A DNA stretch of 64,000 nucleotides from Salminus brasiliensis (taxonomy: Eukaryota > Chordata > Actinopteri > Characiformes > Bryconidae). Positions 2,610 to 56,392 of this stretch are shown in pieces (the stretch's first letter is position 1; each line of letters begins with the position of its first letter). Both the position numbers and the translations under genes were made by a program. The stretch is taken from assembly GCF_030463535.1 (NCBI RefSeq), contig NC_132880.1, positions 28,043,987 to 28,107,986 of the forward strand, in the 5' to 3' direction. The notes beneath the pieces were generated by a model. That model made no database searches. It was not told the DNA's origin and saw only the letters and a list, made by a program, of their open reading frames with translations.

Positions 2610-4628
<2,019 letters not shown>

Positions 4629-8707: not shown

Positions 8708-9730
8708 TTAATATTTGGTACAGAAACCTTTGTTTGCAATTACAGACATGATACGTTTCCTGTAGTTCTTGACAAGGTTTGCACACACTGCAGCAGGGAT
8801 TTTGGCCCACTCCTCCATACAGATCTCCTCCAGAGCCTTCAGGTTTCGTGGCTGTCGCTGGGCCACACGGACTTTAAGCTCCCTCCAAAGATTTTCTATT
8901 GGATTCAGGTCTGGAGACTGGCTAGGCCACTCCAGGACCTTAAGATGTTTCCTACGGAGCCACTCTTTAGTTGCCCTGGCTGTGTGTTTTGGGTCGTTAT
9001 CATGCTGGAAGACCCAGCCACGACCCATCTTCAGTGCTCTTACTGAGGGAAGGAGGTTGTTGGCCAAAATCTCACAATACATGGCCCCATCCATCCTTCC
9101 CACAATACGGTGCAGTCGTCCTGTCCCCTTTGCAGAAAAGCATCCCCAAAGAATGATGTTTCCACCGCCATGCTTCACGGTTGGGATGGTGTTCTTGGGG
9201 TTGTACTCATCATTCTTCTTCCTCCAAACATGACGAGTGGAGTTTAAACCAAAATGTTCTATTTTTGTCTCATCAGACCACATGACCTTCTCCCATTCCT
9301 CCTCTGGATCATTCAGATGGTCATTTGCAAACTTCAGACGGGCTTTGACATGCGTTGGCTTGAGGAAGGGCACCTTGCGTGCACTGCAGGATTTTAATCC
9401 TTGACGGCGTAGAGTGTTACTGATTGTTTTCTTTGAGACTGTGGTCCCAGCTCTATTCAGGTCATTGACCAGGTCCTGCCGTGTAATTCTGGGCTCATTC
9501 CTCACCTTCCTCAAGATCATTGATGCTCCACGAGGTGAGATCTTGCATGGCACCCCAGACCGAGGGAGATTATCCGTTATTTTGCATTTCTTCCATTTTC
9601 TAATAATTGCACCAACAGTTGTTGCCTTCTCACCAAGCTGCTTGCCTATTGTCCTGTAGCCCATCCCAGCCTTGTGCAGGTCTACAATTTTATCCCTGAT
9701 GTCCTTACAAAGCTCTCTGGTCTTGGGCAT
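8708..9730 (-). CDS. Tc1-like transposase (DD34E), intact 340 aa
   Basis: Cut-and-paste transposase acting on the flanking inverted repeats. The N-terminal 110 residues form paired helix-turn-helix DNA-binding regions (for example [16 protein letters not shown] and [12 protein letters not shown]), with a basic [13 protein letters not shown] linker at about 56-68 in the position of the GRPR-like motif. The catalytic triad reads as D153 in WSDETK, D244 in FQHDNDPKH and E279 in NPIENLW, with 34 residues between the last two. Length matches the family's usual 340. The start at 9,730 is the only suitable ATG. No stop or frameshift is seen. The open frames on the opposite strand are shadows. The subfamily is uncertain. 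Confidence 0.95.
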
Positions 9731-9900
9731 TGTGGAGATGCTGGAGTCTGACTGATTGAGTGTGTGGACAGGTGTCTTTTATACAGGTAACGAGTTCAAA
9801 CAGGTGCAGTTAATACAGGTAATGAGTGGAGAACAGGAGGGCTTCTTAAAGAAGAAGTAACATGTCTGTGAGAGCCAAAATTCTTACTGGTTGATAGATG

Positions 9901-29045: not shown

Positions 29046-29118
29046 GTTTCTGTAGTGTAGTGGTTATCACGTTTGCCTCAAACGCGAAAGGTCCCCGATT
29101 CAAAACCGGGCAGAAACA
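29046..29118 (+). tRNA. tRNA-Val-like gene with CAA anticodon loop; possibly a pseudogene
   Basis: The acceptor stem pairs GTTTCTG with CAGAAAC perfectly, the D-arm is intact, and the A-box TAGTGTAGTGG is intact. The anticodon arm is TTTGC-CTCAAAC-GCGAA. Compared with eukaryotic tRNA-Val(CAC), loop position 36 has changed C to A, so the loop reads CAA, a leucine anticodon on a valine body. The T-arm CCCGA-TTCAAAA-CCGGG has a mismatch at the last pair, and the B-box is weakened at a normally invariant G. A TTTT terminator-like run occurs about 25 nt downstream. It is either a chimeric-identity tRNA or a decaying copy. Confidence 0.7.
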
Positions 29119-35739: not shown

Positions 35740-38700
35740 TTATTCGCTGACAGTCTCCTCTTCCATGTCCTACAACAAAATGAACTGTGTCAGTAACCCT
35801 ATAAGGACAAAAGCAGTTGTGGTATTCTCTCACATATGCAGCACTCATTTGATGACATTTACCCAGCTCGTTCTTTAACACATCTATATTATATTATATT
35901 TGTTTATAGAGATGTTCTCCTTAGTTTAAGAAATAATAGTGAAAGTTGAATAATGTTTCTTCCTCTAAATGTTAGTGTTGTTACCACTGTATTCAGTATC
36001 AAGAAGAATGTTACTCAGTTATTTCCTGCTTCTTTGGTTGTTATAATTAAACCAGTTGAAGTTCACTGGCCTTTCAGTTATTAGTTATACTGTAATTACA
36101 ATGGCATGGATATGGAAAAGCTCCTTACCTTAAAGCTGATTTCCACAAGTTTGTTCAGCAGAAAGGCCTCTGATTCAACTGAGAACTGGCTCTGCTCCAT
36201 GCTGGCCAAAAGTCTCAGATAATTTGTCATGAGCTCCACCTTTCTATAAACATAAACAACAGTCAATTAGAAATAATGGTCTTTTGATGTGTATGGGAAT
36301 ATCATTTAGTCATATTTACTGATCCTATGATCATGCTTGAGGGACCAACATATGGGTATTTCTGAAACAGTGTCTTTTACCGTTTGCTGTGTTTCTGTCC
36401 ACTGAAACGTTGTTTGAGAGCCTCCTGGTCTGCCTCTTCACCTGACTGGGTTTCACTAATCTCTAGTTCTGTTGTGAGAGAGTGAGAGAGATCCAGATAA
36501 ACAAATCTACACCAATACAAAATATTCATAAAGAAACAAATATTAGCAAATATGAAACACAAAAACTATTAATTATTTGCCAAGGTAAAAACCCATCCAT
36601 TTACCACCACCTTTATGCACCAGGCAGCCCTTTCAAACAAGCTCTGTTATCTTACACACTTACCGATCTTCCTGATGAACTCGCCTTCATCCTCTTGGGC
36701 AGCTTCCACCTGAAATCAGAGGTTAGTTAGAATACTGAACCATTACACATCTATAAGTTATTCTGCGCTGTAAGAGTCTGAACTCTGTGTACCTTCTGAT
36801 TTGTCCTGTTGATGGTAAGTCCCAAGTTGTCCACCAACACTGCCAGGATGATACTTGAAGGACAGAGAACAAAGATGAAGTGAACATTAAGTACATAAAC
36901 ATGCACTGAGTAGTAATAAGTCAATGCTGTCTGGCTGGATGGGGAACGTTATTCCCAGTAACTTACTTGAGGAGAATTAAATTCTCCAAAACGATGTACA
37001 ACACCATAAACACCATGATGAATTTTCCCACTGCGGGACTAATAAAGGACTATCTTATCTTATCTTATCTTATGTGAGCAGCTCCTGTTGACAGCAGAAA
37101 ACAGAGAATGGATACCATTGATAAAAAATTCACAACAATACTTACCATTTTTATTAATTTTGTTTAATTATTTTAATTATTTAAATAATCAAGTGAAAGA
37201 TTGTTAGAGCACTGGTTTATCTGATCTATGTGATTAAATAGTTTCTTAAGCCACATTTCCTTCATCTGAACTGTTGTAAAATTTGAGATTTAATGATGCA
37301 ACAAATCATTTCCTGAATATAAGTACAATTAAAATATAGTAGATTTGATCTTTTGTGATTGACCCCTTACCTTTGTCATAGCTGGTATTATAGACCAGGC
37401 CCCAGTCATCCAGCGTCAGCACCTGAAACAAGGTGGTAATGGTGCTGAAAATACCTCCAAACCTCTCCGGGTCTGACTCACTATACAACACCCGGAGAAA
37501 AATGGTGAACATGCAAATGACCATTAGCATGATGAATGAGGTGGAGCCAATGGACCGCAAGGACTTTACAGCTGTTGCCAAGATTATCTGGAGTGTGTGG
37601 AAGGAGCTGGAACAAGAGACAGAGTGCCAGAGTTAATGTATGTGAGTAAACTGAACTTCCCAAAAACGGTTTTGGTACATTGATCAAAGCTGCTGATCAT
37701 CGTTTTATTTATAGCTCTTTGTTGATTGATCTATAACATCTAGAGACATTATTATATCACAACCTAATATATCACAACCTAATCAGGCTGAAATAGTTAG
37801 TATAGGATTAGTACATATCAACTACTGATTCAAAGTGATAGCCACAGATATGGACACCCGTACTTTCCTAAACGCTACAAAAATGAAAGACACTATAAGA
37901 GTTGAATCCACAAACTGCTAAGTGAAACACCATAGTATTGCTTATTGGCTTAAAGGTTCTGTGAAATGTGTTGTTCATGCTCTACAGACTCCTTCTTTAG
38001 TCTATTCCTGCTTTAAGCATCAGTGAGGTCATTTCACATCACGTCCATCAAAGTGTACTTTTTCTTACCGGATGGCTTTGAGCAAACGGAAGGCTCTGAT
38101 TGCTCGTGCTCCTTTCATAATCTTCAGAGCCCGGAAGACGCTGGAGGTCTGTTTACCGCCCGTGAGTCCTGTGGTTTGCGCCAATGGCAGTGCAAAATCC
38201 ACCACACTCATGACAATAATGATGAAATCTGAAAGAAAAAGGAGAAACAATCAGACTGAATAAGTTCTTACATCTAACATCTCAGTACTTGATATTTAAA
38301 AAAAAAAAAAAATATGCAAAGGTATTTGAGTTTTAGGACCAGGTTGACTACTCTCATAAGAGATGGATCAGCTCACCCATGTTGTTCCAGGAGTTCAGGA
38401 AGTACTTGTGTCCCCACGCCAGGAGCTTCAGAAAGAACTCCATCAGGTAGATACCCAGGAAACAGGCATCCACCGCTGAGAACACCCAACCTAGTACAGC
38501 CATATAAAAAGATCAGAGTTTATATCAGAATAATGACCAGACCTTTTATCATGACTTCTGATATGATCAGAATACTGTACTAAAATAATCAGTACAAGTC
38601 AGAGTGTCTATGATAATGTTACCGTGTGTGCTTAATATTGTGGTGTACTGAACTACTGAATACTGCACATGTCCAGAGTGTATCCATATTAACGTCTGTG

Positions 38701-41700
38701 TGAACATGTACTCTATGGTTCTCTATCTCTAGATATCTCTATATCATATCTCTATAGTTACCAATGATGAGGTTAAATTTTACCCAAAATAAGAAAAAAA
38801 TATGACAGAGTGAACATGAGCTCTACACAGTGTATGACCGCACCTCCTCTCACACTGACTCTTGGGAAGGCCTGGGTGATCAGCAGCGTGGTATCAAGTA
38901 CAACCACGAACAAGATGAAACTGGTGAATAGAGGGTTCTGGGTGAAGTTAAAGATGAGGTCGTAGATCTGCTCGACCCGTGTCCACCAACACTTCACTGA
39001 AGAACCATCAACCTGGAATTGATCTCTGGATTCATCCTCTACAGACAGAGAAAGAGAGACAATGATGAGCATGCTTGATGGGCCGAGGGTATATGTTTGT
39101 GTGTGACAGAGAGGGAGTGTAGGTGTGTGTGAGTGGGGTTGAAGTTTTAGAGCCAAAAGCTCTGGCAGAGTAACCTTCTTCCGAAAGGCTGTCGTGGTCA
39201 GTGCTGTAGAGGGTGTGTTGTCTCGGCCCACAGCAGAGGTAGAAACACAGGATGCTGAAGATGGTGATCATCGTCATCTGTAAACACATCATTTGTTATG
39301 ATGGTGTTAAATTTTATTCTGAATTTATAGCTCTTCTACAAAAAATGAATGGAATTTCTAATCCATTCTATTGTGTAAAATGTCTGTAGGTACGTCTGAA
39401 TAAATCCCTCACCCCCACGTAGAACAGAGCTCTGTCTGGCAGTAGAGGAAGACCGTGAACATGCAGCTCAAAACGAGCAGAATGCTCACAGTATGTGCCA
39501 ACTCCCCTATACACACATACACAAACACACACACACAGAAACATCAGACAGATTATTTACATGGTGCACTTACTCCTTCTCACCACATGAGGGCAAACTA
39601 CTGCCCTCTCTACTGAGTAAAGCCCACTGAGTCTCTCTAGGTCTTGAGAATGGACGTACCTGTTGGAGACCTCAACGATAAAGAAGAAGTCCGGACTCTG
39701 CAGACCCTGAGGTGTTACATCCCCACAGGGAGAGTTCCTCTGACACACCCATCTATACAAACACACACCACACACACACCACACACACACACACACAGTT
39801 GATTGTTGAACAAAAACATAAGAGGGAGCTGTTGCTCCAACTCAACTCAAAGTTATGTACATCTCTCTCTCACGCACTCACTCACTCACGCACTCACCCA
39901 CCCTCACTGTCTTTTACACACACACACACATGTTTATTTCTAATAAAAACAGCAGTGGGAGCTCTCACCTGACCCAGTTGATGCTGCCACTCATCACCAT
40001 GAAGCCCTCTTTAGTCATGTTAGCAGAGTCGTTCTGCAACGTCCACACACTCTCCTCAGAGCTCTCGCTAACACACACACAAACACACACAGGGGAGTTT
40101 AAATATGATGCTAATATTAAATATAGCGATTAGACAGACTGACACGTGTTTGTTGTTAAAATCAATCTTGTGTAAAAAGCTACAGCAGCAACACAGTGAT
40201 CTGAACTGTCACATTAAGTCTATGTGATGTAGATACCTGTAATTGAAGCTGTTGATCTTCAAGATTTCCTCCTCACTGTAGTAACGCACGTTGTTCCTGG
40301 AATAAGGTCCCCCACCAACTACCTTAAATGTGTAGCTTTGGAGAAAACACACACACACACACAGTTAGGAAAAACAATTTTTGAGATGAGGGTCGATTTA
40401 CATCAGAAATTTGATATGAGAAGTAAAATTAAATATGAAGATCATTTTTAAAAGATAATTTTCAATAAATAATATTATAGGAGATTGAAACTGATTACAA
40501 TGGTACATTATCAATACACTACAGTATCTTCTACACCCAGACAAAGCAAACATGCAGAAATAGAACAAATATGTGGAATAGTGTTTATAATCTTTACCTG
40601 CCCAGGAACCTCTCCAACTCTCCCGAGACGTTACTCTTGATGGCAAAGAATGGATAGAAGACTAGGGATGGAGGGAGAGTGAACGAGAGAGACAGAGGGT
40701 TAGGTAAACCTCCAAACAGTACCACACCTAGCACACTATATACAGAGCTATGAGTACCTATGTAGCGAAGTAAGAAAAAAAGCTTTAGGATGTTTGAGGC
40801 TCATGCTGCCTTCATGCCTCCAGAATTATCAGAAATATGAGTTTCTGACCTAAAAATGTTTAAGACTTTCTGTTACTGACCTTTACCCATTCTACACGGT
40901 GGAGGAAAGGACGGTTTTAGAGATTGATGGCAGGTCATTTTAATCCTAAACTTACTTTTAGGAATCACTGATCTTAGAAGCTTGTTTACACGTGACCCCT
41001 GCATTATGTAAGAACTGCAATGGGTTGTATTTTTACAATGGGGGGGGGGTGTTAAAAAGACCCCAAAAAGATCAGGGGAGCTGATTGGTGAAGCATGTTC
41101 CCAACTACAAAGCACTTCAATGTAAAGACTGTGTAACTCCAGCTTGGCTAAAGGGAAACAGGAGCACCTGATGAGCATGTAAAGGTAGCATCAGATTGGG
41201 GAACTTTCATACAGCAGGATTTATCAGTTAGCCAGATCATTTAATCCAAATCTGAGGACTGTCCAGTGAGAGGGAAGATGAGGGGATTTCCTTTTGCACT
41301 AAATTAAAAAGGTTTTGTTGTGCAGCTTATTGAGAAATCCTCCTGCATGAAGTTCTACCCAGAAGTCTAAAGTGTGAGAGGACACTTACGGTCTTTGAAA
41401 TAGAAGCACGGCACGCCTGGCTCAGGCTTTGGGCAGTCAAAGTACCGCCGGTTTAGCCGTGTGCTCTCCTGCAGGGTGGCGTTAACGTCAAACGCCAGCT
41501 GGCTGTCTGGTAGACACTGAGAGACGTTCTGAAAGACAGAAACAGTGAATGGTCATTTTTACTTCAGGTTAGTTCTGGGCTCCTCTATACCAAAAAACAT
41601 TGGTCAGTAACTGATGAGAGAATCAGGTGTGTTTAAGTAAAGAGACCATTAGACTGTGCTGGACTCCAACCTTCCAGCACTAGGCTTGGGCTCTCCTGCA

Positions 41701-41932
41701 CTAGCGTGTATTCTGGAGTATGTAATGTAGACATATGAATGCAAAAGCATGATTTCAAAGAAGAGAAGAAGAAGAAGATACATACAGTGTTCCCGTGAAC
41801 ATACTGGTCCCCAAAGATGTCCGCCACGCTGCGCCTGTTCGGTTTACTGGAAACTGCCCTCTGTGGGTGTTCAAGGCCACAGGAAACCACCAGGCCCACA
41901 GCAAATAGAAGGGTCAGTATTCTGACCATCAT
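35740..41932 (-). CDS. catsper1: CatSper1-type channel with ectodomain, copy A (S6 exon interrupted)
   Basis: Same 18-exon architecture as copy B. Exons: 41,786-41,932; 41,390-41,528; 40,598-40,661; 40,237-40,335; 39,969-40,067; 39,660-39,752; 39,413-39,506; 39,175-39,277; 38,844-39,038; 38,377-38,490; 38,069-38,228; 37,371-37,606; 36,967-37,084; 36,793-36,853; 36,664-36,709; 36,381-36,468; 36,129-36,243; 35,740-35,769. The exon at 36,967-37,084 encodes S6 and carries a 54-bp insertion. Reading through it meets TAA seven codons into the exon (GAAHIR then stop), which would remove S6 and the C-terminal tail. All other exons stay open and keep their splice sites, and the S6 codons after the insertion still read IMVFMVLYIVLENLILL, so the lesion is recent. 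An AG inside the insertion (CCCGCAG) could serve as a new acceptor and restores the frame. Either a fresh pseudogene or an altered channel. Confidence 0.8.
37021..37074 (+). mobile_element. 54-bp retroelement-tail-like insertion in the S6 exon
   Basis: Absent from copy B at 51,550/51,551. It reads AATTTTCCCACTGCGGGACT, then AATAAAGGAC and four TATCT-type units, the form of a 3' terminus of fish non-LTR elements ending in short tandem repeats. ATG flanks both sides. Several substitutions cluster in the 30 bp to its left, so the event may have involved local repair or conversion. Confidence 0.7.
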
Positions 41933-50266: not shown

Positions 50267-53200
50267 TTATTCGCTGACAGTCTCCTCTTCCATGTCCTAC
50301 AACAAAATGAACTGTGTCAGTAACCCTATAAGGACAAAAGCAGTTGTGGTATTCTCTCACATATGCAGCACTCATTTGATGACATTTACCCAGCTCGTTC
50401 TTTAACACATATATATTATATTATATTTGTTTATAAAGATGTTCTCCTTAGTTTAAGAAATAATAGTGAAAGTTGAATAATGTTTCTTCCTCTAAATGTT
50501 AGTGTTGTTACCACTGTATTCAGTATCAAGAAGAACGTTACTCACTTATTTCCTGCTTCTTTGGTCGTTATAATTAAACCAGTTGAAGTTCACTGGCCTT
50601 TCAGTTATTAGTTGTACTGTAATTGCAATGGCATGGATATGGAAAAGCTCCTTACCTTAAAGCTGATTTCCACAAGTTTGTTCAGCAGAAAGGCCTCTGA
50701 TTCAACTGAGAACTGGCTCTGCTCCATGCTGGCCAAAAGTCTCAGATAATTTGTCATGAGCTCCACCTTTCTATAAACATAAACAACAACAGTCTATTAG
50801 AGATAATGGTCTTTTGATGTGTATGGGAATATCATTTAGTAATATTTACTGATCCTATGATCATGTTTGAGGGACCAACATATGGGTATTTCTGAAACAG
50901 TGTCTTTTACCGTTTGCTGTGTTTCTGTCCACTGAAACGTTGTTTGAGAGCCTCCTGGTCTGCCTCTTCACCTGACTGGGTCTCACTAATCTCTAGTTCT
51001 GTTGTGAGAGAGTGAGAGAGATCCAGATAAACAAATCTACACCAATACAAAATATTCATAAAGAAACAAATATTAGCCAATATGAAACAAAAAAACTATT
51101 AATTATTTGCCAAGGTAAAAACCCATCCATTTACCACCACCTTTATGCACCAGGCAGCCCTTTCAAACAAGCTCTGTTATCTTACAAACTTACCGATCTT
51201 CCTGATGAACTCGCCTTCATCCTCTTGGGCAGCTTCCACCTGAAATCAGAGGTTAGTTAGAATACTGAACCATTACACATCTATAAGTTATTCTGCGCTG
51301 TAAGAGTCTGAACTCTGTGTACCTTCTGATTTGTCCTGTTGATGGTAAGTCCCAAGTTGTCCACCAACACTGCCAGGATGATACTTGAAGGACAGAGAAC
51401 AAAGATGAAGTGAACATTAAGTACATAAACATGCACTGAGTAGTAATAAGTCAATGCTGTCTGGCTGGATGGGGAACGTTATTCCCAGTAACTTACTTGA
51501 GGAGAATTAAATTCTCCACAATGATGTACAACACCAGGAAGACCATGATGTGAGCAGCTCCTGTTGACAGTAGAAAACAGAGAATGGATCCATTGATAAA
51601 AAATTCACAACAATAGTTACCATTTTTATTAATTTTGTTTAATTATTTTAATTATTTAAATAATCAAGTGAAAGATTGTTAGAGCACTGGTTTATCTGAT
51701 CTATGTGATTAAATAGTTTCTTAAGCCACATTTCCTTAATCTGAACTGTTGTAAAATTTGAGATTTAATGATGCAACAAATAATTTCCTGAATATAAGTA
51801 CAATTAAAATATAGTAGATTTGATCTTTTGTGATTGACCCCTTACCTTTGTCATAGCTGGTATTATAGACCAGGCCCCAGTCATCCAGCGTCAGCACCTG
51901 AAACAAGGTGGTAATGGTGCTGAAAATACCTCCAAACCTCTCCGGGTCTGACTCACTATACAACACCCGGAGAAAAATGGTGAACATGCAAATGACCATT
52001 AGCATGATGAATGAGGTGGAGCCAATGGACCGCAAGGACTTTACAGCTGTTGCCAAGATTATTTCGAGTGTGTTGAAGGAGCTGGAACAAGAGACAGAGT
52101 GCCAGAGTTAATGTATGTGAGTAAACTGAACTTCCCAAAAACGGTTTTGGTACATTGATCAAAGCTGCTGATCATCGTTTTATTTATAGCTCTTTGTTGA
52201 TTGATCTATAACATCTAGAGACATTATTATATCACAACCTAATATATCACAACCTAATCAGGCTGAAATAGTTAGTATAGGATTAGTATATATCAACTAC
52301 TGATTCAAAGTGATAGCCACAGATATGGACACCCGTAACTTCCTAAACGCTACAAAAATGAAAGACACTATAAGAGTTTAATCCACAAACTGCTATGTGA
52401 AACACCATAGTATTGCTTATTGGCTTAAAGGTTCTGTGAAATGTGTTGTTCATGCTCTACAGACTCCTTCTTTAGTCTATTCCTGCTTTAAGCATCAGTG
52501 AGGTCATTTCACATCACGTCCATCAAAGTGTACTTTTTCTTACCGGATGGCTTTGAGCAAACGGAAGGCTCTGATTGCTCGTGCTCCTTTCATAATCTTC
52601 AGAGCCCGGAAGACGCTGGAGGTCTGTTTACCGCCCGCAAGTTTTGTGGTTTGCGCCAATGGCAGTGCAAAATCCACCACACTCATGACAATAATGATGA
52701 AATCTGAAAGAAAAAGGAGAAACAATCAGACTGAATAAGTTCTTACATCTAACATCTAATATCTCAGTACTTGATATTTTTAAAAAAAAATATGCAAAGG
52801 TATTTCGGTTTTAGGACCAGGTTTACTACTCTTATAAGAGATGGATCAGCTCACCCATGTTGTTCCAGGAGTTCAGGAAGTACTTGTGTCCCCACGCCAG
52901 GAGCTTCAGAAAGAACTCCATCAGGTAGATACCCAGGAAACAGGCATCCACCGCTGAGAACACCCAATCTAGTACAGCCATATAAAAAGATCAGAGTTTA
53001 TATCAGAATAATGACCAGACCTTTTATCATGACTTCTGATATGATCAGAATACTGTACTAAAATAATCAGTACAAGTCAGAGTGTCTATGATAATGTTAC
53101 CGTGTGTGCTTAATATTGTGGTGTACTGAACTAGTAAATACTGCACATGTCCAGAGTGTATCCATATTAACAGCTGTGTGAACATGTACTCTATGGTTCT

Positions 53201-56200
53201 CTATCTCTAGATATCTCTATATCATATCTCTATAGTTATCAATGATGAGGTTAAATTTTACCCAAAATAAGAAAAAAATATGACAGAGTGAACATGAGCT
53301 CTACACAGTGTATGACCGCACCTCCTCTCACACTGACTCTTGGGAAGGCCTGGGCGATCAGCAGCGTGGTATCAAGTACAACCACGAACAAGATGAAACT
53401 GGTGAATAGAGGGTTCTGGGTGAAGTTAAAGATGAGGTCGTAGATCTGCTCAACCCGTGTCCACCAACACTTCACTGAAGAACCATCAACCTGGAATTGA
53501 TCTCTGGATTCATCCTCTACAGACAGAGAAAGAGAGAGAATGATGAGCATGCTTGATGGGCTGAGGGTATATGTTTGTGTGTGACAGAGAGGGAGTGTAG
53601 GTGTGTGTGAGTGGGGTTGAAGTTTTAGAGCCAAAAGCTCTGGCAGAGTAACCTTCTTCCGAAAGGCTGTCGTGGTCAGTGCTGTAGAGGGTGTGTTGTC
53701 TCGGCCCACAGCAGAGGTAGAAACACAGGACGCTGAAGATGGAGATCATCGTCATCTGTAAACACATCATTTGTTATGATGGTGTTAAATTTTATTCTGA
53801 ATTTATGGTTCTTCTACAAAAAATGAATGGAATTCTAATCCATTCTATTGTGTAAAATGTCTGTAGGTACGTTTGAATAAATCCCTCACCCCCACGTAAA
53901 ACAGAGCTCTGTCTGGCAGTAGAGGAAGACCGTGAACATGCAGCTCAAAACGAGCAGAATGCTCACAGTATGTGCCAACTCCCCTATACACACATACACA
54001 AACACACACACACAGAAACATCAGACAGATTATTTACATGGTGCACTTACTCCTTCTCACCACATGAGGGCACACTACTGCCCTCTCTACTGAGTAAAGC
54101 CCACTGAGTCTCTCTAGGTCTTGAGAATGGACGTACCTGTTGGAGACCTCAACGATAAAGAAGAAGTCCGGACTCTGCAGACCCTGAGGTGTTACATCCC
54201 CACAGGGAGAGTTCCTCTGACACACCCATCTATACAAACACACACCACACACACACACAGTTGATTGTTGAACAAAAACATAAGATGGAGCTGTTGCTCC
54301 AACTCAACTCAAAGTTATGTACATCTCTCTCTCACGCACTCACTCACTCACGCACTCACCCACCCTCACTGTCTTTTACACACACACACACATGTTTATT
54401 TCTAATAAAAACAGCAGTGGGAGCTCTCACCTGACCCAGTTGATGCTGCCACTCATCACCATGAAGCCCTCTTTAGTCATGTTAGCAGAGTCGTTCTGCA
54501 ACGTCCACACACTCTCCTCAGAGCTCTCGCTAACACACACACAAACACACACAGGGGAGTTTAAATATGATGCTAATATTAAATATAGCGATTAGACAGA
54601 CTGACACGTGTTTGTTGTTAAAATCAATCTTGTGTAAAAAGCTACAGCAGCAACACAGTGATCTGAACTGTCACATTAAGTCTATGTGATGTAGATACCT
54701 GTAATTGAAGCTGTTGATCTTCAAGATTTCCTCCTCACTGTAGTAACGCACGTTGTTCCTGGAATAAGGTCCCCCACCAACTACCTTAAATGTGTAGCTT
54801 TGGAGAAAACACACACACACACACAGTTAGGAATAAAATTTTGAGATGAGGGTCGATTTACATCAGAAATTTGATATGAGAAGTAAAATTAAATATGAAG
54901 ATCATTTTTAAAAGATCATTTTCAATAAATAATATTATAGGAGATTGAAACTGATTACAATGGTACATTATCAATATACTACAGTATCTTCTACACCCAG
55001 ACAAAGCATACAAGCAGAAATAGAACAAATATGTGGAATAGTGTTTATAATCCTTACCTGCCCAGGAACCTCTCCAACTCTCCAGAGACGTTACTCTTGA
55101 TGGCAAAGAATGGATAGAAGACTAGGGATGGAGAGAGAGTGAACGAGAGAGACAGAGGGTTAGGTAAACCTCCAAACAGTACCACACCTAGCACACTATA
55201 TACAGAGCTATGAGCACCTATGTAGCAAAGTAAGAGAAAAAGCTTTAGGATGTTTGAGGCTCATGCTGCCTTCATGCCTCCAGAATTATCAGAAATATGA
55301 GTTTCTGACCTAAAAATGTTTAAGACTTTCTGTTACTGACCTTTACCCATTCTACACGGTGGAGGAAAGGACGGTTTTAGAGATTGATGGCAGGTCATTT
55401 TAATCCTAAACTTACTTTTAGGAATCACTGATCTTAGAAGCTTGTTTACACGTGACCCCTGCATTATGTAAGAACTGCAATGGGTTGTATTTTTACAATG
55501 GGGGGGGGGTGTTAAAAAGACCCCAAAAAGATCAGGGGAGCTGATTGGTGAAGCATGTTCCCAACTACAAAGCACTTCAATGTAAAGACTGTGTAACTCC
55601 AGCTTGGCTAAAGGGAAACAGGAGCACCTGATGAGCATGTAAAGGTAGCATCAGATTGGGGAACTTTCATACAGCAGGATTTATCAGTTAGCCAGATCAT
55701 TTAATCCAAATCTGAGGACTGTCCAGTGAGAGGGAAGATGAGGGGATTTCCTTTTGCACTAAATTAAAAAGGTTTTGTTGTGCAGCTTATTGAGAAATCC
55801 TCCTGCATGAAGTTCTACCCAGAAGTCTAAAGTGTGAGAGGACACTTACGGTCTTTGAAATAGAAGCACGGCACGCCTGGCTCAGGCTTTGGGCAGTCAA
55901 AGTACCGCCGGTTTAGCCGTGTGCTCTCCTGCAGGGTGGCGTTAACGTCAAACGCCAGCTGGCTGTCTGGTAGACACTGAGAGACGTTCTGAAAGACAGA
56001 AACAGTGAATGGTCATTTTTACTTCAGGTTAGTTCTGGGCTCCTCTATACCAAAAAACATTGGTCAGTAACTGATGAGAGAATCAGGTGTGTTTAAGTAA
56101 AGAGACCATTAGACTGTGCTGGACTCCAACCTTCCAGCACTAGGCTTGGGCTCTCCTGCACTAGCGTGTATTCTGGAGTATGTAATGTAGACATATGAAT

Positions 56201-56392
56201 GCAAAAGCATGATTTCAAAGAAGAGAAGAAGAAGAAGATACATACAGTGTTCCCGTGAACATACTGGTCCCCAAAGATGTCCGCCACGCTGCGCCTGTTC
56301 GGTTTACTGGAAACTGCCCTCTGTGGGTGTTCAAGGCCACAGGAAACCACCAGGCCCACAGCAAATAGAAGGGTCAGTATTCTGACCATCAT
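50267..56392 (-). CDS. catsper1: CatSper1-type channel with N-terminal ectodomain, copy B, intact, 648 aa
   Basis: Exons: 56,246-56,392; 55,850-55,988; 55,058-55,121; 54,699-54,797; 54,431-54,529; 54,137-54,229; 53,890-53,983; 53,653-53,755; 53,322-53,516; 52,855-52,968; 52,544-52,703; 51,846-52,081; 51,497-51,560; 51,323-51,383; 51,194-51,239; 50,911-50,998; 50,656-50,770; 50,267-50,296. They sum to 1,947 nt with every phase matching. Residues 1-19 (MMVRILTLLFAVGLVVSCG) look like a signal peptide. Residues 50-238 form an ectodomain with six cysteines and six N-glycosylation sequons. Residues 239-263 are one membrane helix. Then S1 (317-336), S2 (348-367), S3 (383-398), S4 with eight basic residues every third position (415-436), S5 (455-474), the calcium-selective TLDDW filter (500-504), S6 (518-536), an acidic tail, and a NYLRLLASMEQSQF segment resembling human CATSPER1's C terminus. 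CatSper1 forms the sperm flagellar calcium channel with CatSper2-4. The usual histidine-rich cytosolic N terminus is absent. The donor joining residues 279 and 280 (GTTACT) is weak. Confidence 0.88.

Follow-up and report, generated by a model that had tools for sequence, protein, structure and literature searches.

The minus strand of the window (the whole 64,000-nt stretch analysed, C3:28043987-28107986) carries an 18-exon gene that runs from 56392 to 50267. Rebuilt independently, its exons join with matching phases to 1947 nt, or 648 codons plus stop, as the sequence-only reading had it, and GT-AG borders flank 17 of 17 introns when exon 7 is taken as 53983-53890; the 18-exon, 648-codon gene first described is thus confirmed. 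The features below rest on the gene model, combined with gamma homology for exons 2 to 8, with CATSPER1 homology for exons 9 to 17, with genome-wide searches for exon 6 (CATSPERG_C) and exon 12 (CatSper1 half), and with the comparison of copies for intron 8.

56246..56392, minus strand: exon 1, start codon and putative signal peptide, residues 1-49 (147 nt, the same in 18/18 modelled copies)
55850..55988, minus strand: exon 2, start of the CatSper gamma C-terminal domain, residues 50-96
55058..55121, minus strand: exon 3, gamma domain
54699..54797, minus strand: exon 4, gamma domain
54431..54529, minus strand: exon 5, gamma domain
54137..54229, minus strand: exon 6, gamma domain
53890..53983, minus strand: exon 7, gamma domain
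53653..53755, minus strand: exon 8, gamma transmembrane helix and first half of the cytosolic linker, residues 246-280
53517..53652, minus strand: intron 8, the fusion junction, 136 nt, with weak donor GTTACT and acceptor CTGTCTGTAG
53322..53516, minus strand: exon 9, second half of the linker and S1 of CatSper1
52855..52968, minus strand: exon 10, S2
52544..52703, minus strand: exon 11, S3-S4
51846..52081, minus strand: exon 12, S5 and pore with TLDDW filter
51497..51560, minus strand: exon 13, S6
51323..51383, minus strand: exon 14, end of S6 and C-tail
51194..51239, minus strand: exon 15, C-tail
50911..50998, minus strand: exon 16, C-tail
50656..50770, minus strand: exon 17, CATSPER1-like C-tail
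50267..50296, minus strand: exon 18 with stop codon (gene model)

Intron 1 is 257 nt long, which leaves no space for propeller exons inside the gene. Elsewhere, the window contains a protein kinase reading frame (2610-3284, minus strand; Pkinase, E=7e-25), a long open frame for a Tc1/Sleeping-Beauty-type transposase (8708-9778, minus strand), and a tRNA gene (29046-29118, plus strand; Rfam).

The elements that had been described for the first half of the protein are all present at mapped residues: two hydrophobic stretches that precede the channel and are predicted from hydropathy alone, one signal-peptide-like (residues 2-20) and the other membrane-helix-like (residues 241-259); six ectodomain cysteines (54, 81, 90, 186, 192, and 220); and six N-X-S/T sequons (50, 65, 106, 148, 162, and 166). 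Histidines number 10 in 648 residues. The second half had been read as a complete 6TM channel with a TLDDW filter and a CATSPER1-like C terminus, and this holds: scanned apart from the first half, it contains the TLDDW motif and matches Ion_trans (PF00520; E=3.9e-33), and residues 304-640 match residues 609-948 of mouse CATSPER1 in the PDB, C-terminal tail included (E=5.4e-65). CATSPER1 chains in the PDB scored 222.9 and 191 bits, and the best channel other than CATSPER1 scored 135.5 bits; CATSPER2-4 chains were without a match among the best 60 of 112 PDB matches to the channel half.

The suggestion that an auxiliary-like ectodomain had been fused to the pore subunit was borne out by a profile check against the auxiliary subunits: residues 54-260 match Pfam CATSPERG_C (E=1.1e-49; profile positions 2-181 of 202), the C-terminal domain of CatSper gamma, in a layout that recurs in 18 modelled copies on three contigs. 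Against mouse CatSper gamma residues 878-1082 (PDB 7eeb and 9ubw), the ectodomain gave E values of about 2e-48 to 4e-48, with 86 of 203 aligned residues identical and six of six cysteines falling on mouse gamma cysteines. These profile and PDB matches rule out an ectodomain unrelated to CatSper, and the recurrence of the same layout in 18/18 modelled copies rules out a chance joining of two frames. In the joined protein of another copy (C2:36.38), CATSPERG_C (1.3e-51) and Ion_trans (1.2e-33) match on one chain. The signal-peptide exon had no match in the PDB, and no relatives of the gene were found in viral contigs.

We searched the genome (1.07 Gb in 103 contigs, numbered C1, C2, and so on) with each half. 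The CATSPERG_C profile gave 141 exon matches (150 of 242 candidates scored), which among the matches listed lie on C1, C2, and C3 alone; the CatSper1 half gave 114 matches at E<=1e-10 (111 of 708 candidates scored), again on C1-C3 alone among the candidates scored. A diverged stand-alone CATSPER1 or gamma gene may be present among the unscored candidates. Counting one exon 12 match per gene yields at least 81 copies on three large contigs (positions in Mb):

C3:28.08-28.29, the window's array: 14 copies
C3:29.40-30.65, a large array: 57 copies, 53 on the plus and 4 on the minus strand
C3:25.72, an isolated copy: 1 copy
C2:37.57-37.66, the C2 array: 6 copies
C2:36.39, a single C2 copy: 1 copy
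C1: 2 copies

Gamma exon 6 lies no more than 6 kb upstream on the same strand at 79 of the 81 CatSper1-half places; the other two places lack a scored exon 6, and one exon 6 lacks an exon 12. The copy at C3:25.72 Mb matches exons 6-13 and 17, and the upstream sequence retrieved for it gave no match to exons 1-5. On C1 near 28.954 Mb, pieces resembling exons 9, 10, and 14 sit between an inverted pair of intact genes and may be the remains of another copy.

Nineteen loci (two in the window and 17 fetched) were available at or close to full length, and 18 of the at least 81 copies were modelled. The same 18 exons, including the 147-nt signal-peptide exon, recur in 18/18 modelled copies on the three contigs, bar exon 17 of one; the copy at C3:29.446 has a deletion in exon 17. 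Because the modelling script accepted only exons with GT-AG borders whose lengths differed between copies by multiples of three, equal phases among copies are partly imposed. Whole-codon length differences occur in exons 5, 7, 8, 9, 16, and 18, and 17 of 18 modelled copies have a single open frame of 648-665 residues. TLDDW and all six cysteines are each present in 17/17 aligned copies.

The second copy of the gene in the window has the following features, both based on sequence comparison:

35740..41932, minus strand: the second gamma-CatSper1 gene in full, in tandem with the first and about 98% identical to it
37021..37074, minus strand: 54-nt insertion where exon 13 of this copy starts

With the old acceptor, the insertion introduces stop codons; a new in-frame acceptor (CCCGCAG) is present, and the copy keeps its open frame solely via this acceptor. 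Among the fetched loci where the check matched, the insertion is confined to this copy. Several codon changes cluster nearby. With exon 13 left aside, the two window copies differ at 15 of 1883 exon sites and at 52 of 4169 intron sites (p=0.14 by Fisher's test), a divergence too small for a test of selection.

For seven pairs chosen from nine aligned copies, dN/dS (Nei-Gojobori) was 0.24-0.43 in the gamma part, 0.16-0.24 in the channel, 0.55-1.30 in the linker, and 0.05-0.50 in the C-tail; residues 1-53 are weakly constrained (0.34-0.94 in six pairs and 0.15 in the seventh). In the gamma and channel parts, dS was roughly 0.25-0.67 in six pairs, the seventh (C2:36.38 versus C2:37.625) being recent. 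These ratios indicate that gamma and channel halves are both under purifying selection. Trees of the two halves, built from 17 copies, share their deep branching and show minor differences in how they resolve the window's array.

The donor of exon 8 in the window gene reads AAG/GTTACT, which the sequence-only reading had named as its weak point. Junction donors in 30 distinct copies are GTTACT (n = 14), GTAACT (n = 5), or GTAAAT (n = 11): GTTACT belongs to the window's array and its minus-strand relatives, GTAACT to the C1 and C2 copies, and GTAAAT to the other C3 copies. The two C1 copies have a 69-nt intron 8 through which the frame stays open from exon 8 into exon 9, so that the gamma helix and CatSper1 S1 would lie on one chain, spliced or unspliced. 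The doubt about the donor thus dissolves at the level of the family, where 16 of 30 copies carry GTAACT or GTAAAT in that position and two (those on C1) need no splice, and it stays with the GTTACT copies; the comparison indicates that the weak donor is a local variant within the gene family. Intron 8, which is 69 to 567 nt long in modelled copies, is itself fairly conserved: identity between copies is 0.79-0.93 over aligned bases (the 0.93 comes from 67 bases), as high as in the introns nearby or higher. If intron 8 is retained in GTTACT copies (the window's array and four related minus-strand copies), the exon 8 frame hits a stop before the channel; differing stops and lengths among copies rule out such read-through as a conserved product.

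We consider it highly probable that the gene encodes one seven-pass CatSper subunit, in which a gamma stem and helix, a linker, and a complete CatSper1 follow one another. The weak donor in the window, together with an ATG in the CatSper1 frame inside intron 8, before exon 9, would also suit two adjacent genes, one for a short gamma-stem membrane protein and the other with a CatSper1 transcript that starts at or just before exon 9. However, exon 9 has a polypyrimidine-rich acceptor, better donors are found in the C1, C2, and other C3 copies, and intron 8 is short; its read-through tails stop at varied places, with intron lengths that are not multiples of three; the C1 copies have one frame across the junction; and neither AATAAA nor ATTAAA occurs between the start of exon 8 and the end of exon 9 in any of the 18 modelled copies. 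Two separate genes therefore seem quite improbable.

A fusion might instead be family-wide, with GTTACT having abolished splicing in the window's array to leave a truncated gamma-stem protein. We regard this as unlikely, since the channel half is open in all 10 modelled GTTACT copies and its dN/dS between the window gene and C3:29.988 is 0.17 (an average that includes time before the change), albeit that GTTACT was found in 14 of 14 copies read from the window's array and its minus-strand relatives and GTAACT or GTAAAT in the other 16. That the copies are nonfunctional amplified repeats or an assembly artefact might be argued from their high number, from the insertion in one, and from the exon 17 deletion in another; it is highly improbable given that 17 of 18 modelled copies have one open frame of 648-665 residues and that the copies lie on three contigs, with the dS range given above and dN/dS well below 1 in both halves.

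If the locus is one fused gene, its product would consist, in order, of a cleaved signal peptide, an extracellular gamma stem, the gamma helix, an acidic cytosolic linker of about 45-60 residues, and the CatSper1 voltage sensor, pore, and C-tail. The signal peptide would provide targeting to the ER and direct the N terminus outside, where the stem would fold and become glycosylated; the gamma helix would bring the chain back to the cytosol, and the linker would then enter S1. Such an orientation (N-out, one pass, linker) would suit both gamma, which is N-out with one pass, and CatSper1, whose N terminus is cytosolic. As to origin, the 3' end of a gamma gene, minus its propeller exons and last exon, may have been placed before CatSper1 exons that were without their own 5' (histidine-rich) exon.

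PMC10055175, citing the mouse cryo-EM structure, pairs beta with CATSPER4, gamma with CATSPER1, delta with CATSPER3, and epsilon with CATSPER2; on that description, the fusion unites the cognate partners of one pair. Given this gamma-CATSPER1 pairing in mouse, the covalent link would hold the stem and helix next to the voltage sensor of CatSper1 in a fixed 1:1 ratio, and the fused subunit presumably assembles with CATSPER2-, 3-, and 4-like subunits of the same genome.

We looked for these subunits with human CATSPER2, 3, and 4 as queries; their names rest on single-exon matches, and the counts are lower bounds. CATSPER2-like sequences gave at least 23 matches (99 of 99 candidates scored; best E=1.1e-12), 21 of them in 11 places on C1 and two weak ones on C26 and C13; the places, at C1:67.77-68.85 Mb and C1:10.854 Mb, are mostly small tandem groups. 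CATSPER3-like sequences gave at least 30 matches (104 of 193 candidates scored), 22 of which are weak (E about 8e-4 to 1e-3) and arrayed on C20 and C3; this pore exon occurs at C20:28.62-28.81 Mb, C20:22.28-22.45 Mb, and C3:25.077-25.098 Mb, many matches being about 10 kb apart. Each of the eight better-scoring CATSPER3-like matches lies within one long open frame, and these probably represent exons of potassium channels. The CATSPER4-like pore exon gave at least 60 matches (90 of 337 candidates scored), 51 on C8 and nine on C18, with E values of 3e-8 to 1e-7 except for two weaker ones; its arrays lie at C8:28.74-29.42 Mb (minus strand), at C8:33.96-34.18 Mb (plus strand), and at several places on C18, mostly in tandem.

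Profiles of other auxiliary domains had no genome-wide matches: gamma propeller PF15064 (2 of 2 candidates scored), beta C-terminal PF15149 (0 candidates scored), delta propeller PF15020 (0 candidates scored), and delta/epsilon C-terminal PF22850 (4 candidates scored). For each profile, as for CATSPERG_C itself, the control matched 0 of 14 genomes, so these null results do not prove genome-wide absence of propeller, beta, delta, or epsilon; the clear matches of the similarly long CATSPERG_C profile make well-conserved relatives less likely, no more. A CATSPERB gene is described in Atlantic salmon (PMC7560756), which indicates that a bony fish can keep beta.

In mouse sperm, as presented in PMC9205950, the canopy is made of the propellers, and complexes are linked in rows through contacts of gamma with gamma and of beta with beta. 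With gamma lacking its propeller, the gamma-gamma contact between complexes would be lost or weakened and the lattice changed. Our tentative and rather doubtful extension is that CatSper has been rebuilt in this fish: gamma would persist only as a stem joined to the pore subunit with which it pairs, the propellers of gamma, beta, delta, and epsilon that form the canopy would be gone, and the four tandem-amplified pore subunits would give many combinatorial, canopy-less channels. If so, such channels may have a role in sperm competition or even in a different tissue; in tambaqui skin, transcripts of catsper1 and catsper3 are reported to be raised (PMC6388931).

A naturally occurring fusion of the gamma stem to CatSper1 would lend independent support to the gamma-CATSPER1 pairing in mouse, and studies of expression and gating could use it directly as a tethered construct. 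It also suggests that an auxiliary subunit can be pared down to the portion that touches the channel, and it predicts a different extracellular lattice. The parallel amplification of four pore genes in a bony fish raises the question of whether sperm competition, dosage, or a non-sperm role lies behind it. Bony fishes were once thought to lack CatSper (PMC2572835), and CatSper1 of 13 fishes is analysed in PMC11289002; judged by titles and the openings of abstracts, neither a CatSper1-gamma fusion nor a CatSper tandem expansion in fish was found among the papers listed. Such fusions may already lie unremarked among database fish sequences.

The fused subunit shares with mouse CATSPER1 (PDB 7eeb_A and 9ubw_A) the six-helix channel, the TLDDW filter, and a C-tail that aligns to residue 948 of the 955-residue chain. 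Unlike in mouse CATSPER1, a signal peptide, gamma stem, extra helix, and linker replace the long histidine-rich cytosolic N terminus; that terminus is presented as a gain in mammals (PMC11289002) and on this account does not define the family for fish CatSper1. With mouse CATSPERG (PDB 7eeb_F and 9ubw_F), it shares the C-terminal domain, the membrane helix, and six of six cysteines. In contrast to mouse CATSPERG, the gene has no beta-propeller, and its gamma part is continuous with CatSper1 in the genomic frame. Mouse CatSper gamma has an N-terminal signal peptide, as the fused gene is predicted to have. A seven-pass channel is also found in BK/Slo1, in which an extracellular N terminus, an extra helix (S0), and a cytosolic linker precede S1-S6; S0 of BK/Slo1 is not a captured auxiliary subunit. 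We claim no homology between the two: the resemblance of the fused subunit to BK/Slo1 is one of layout, in that an extra first helix stands before S1-S6.
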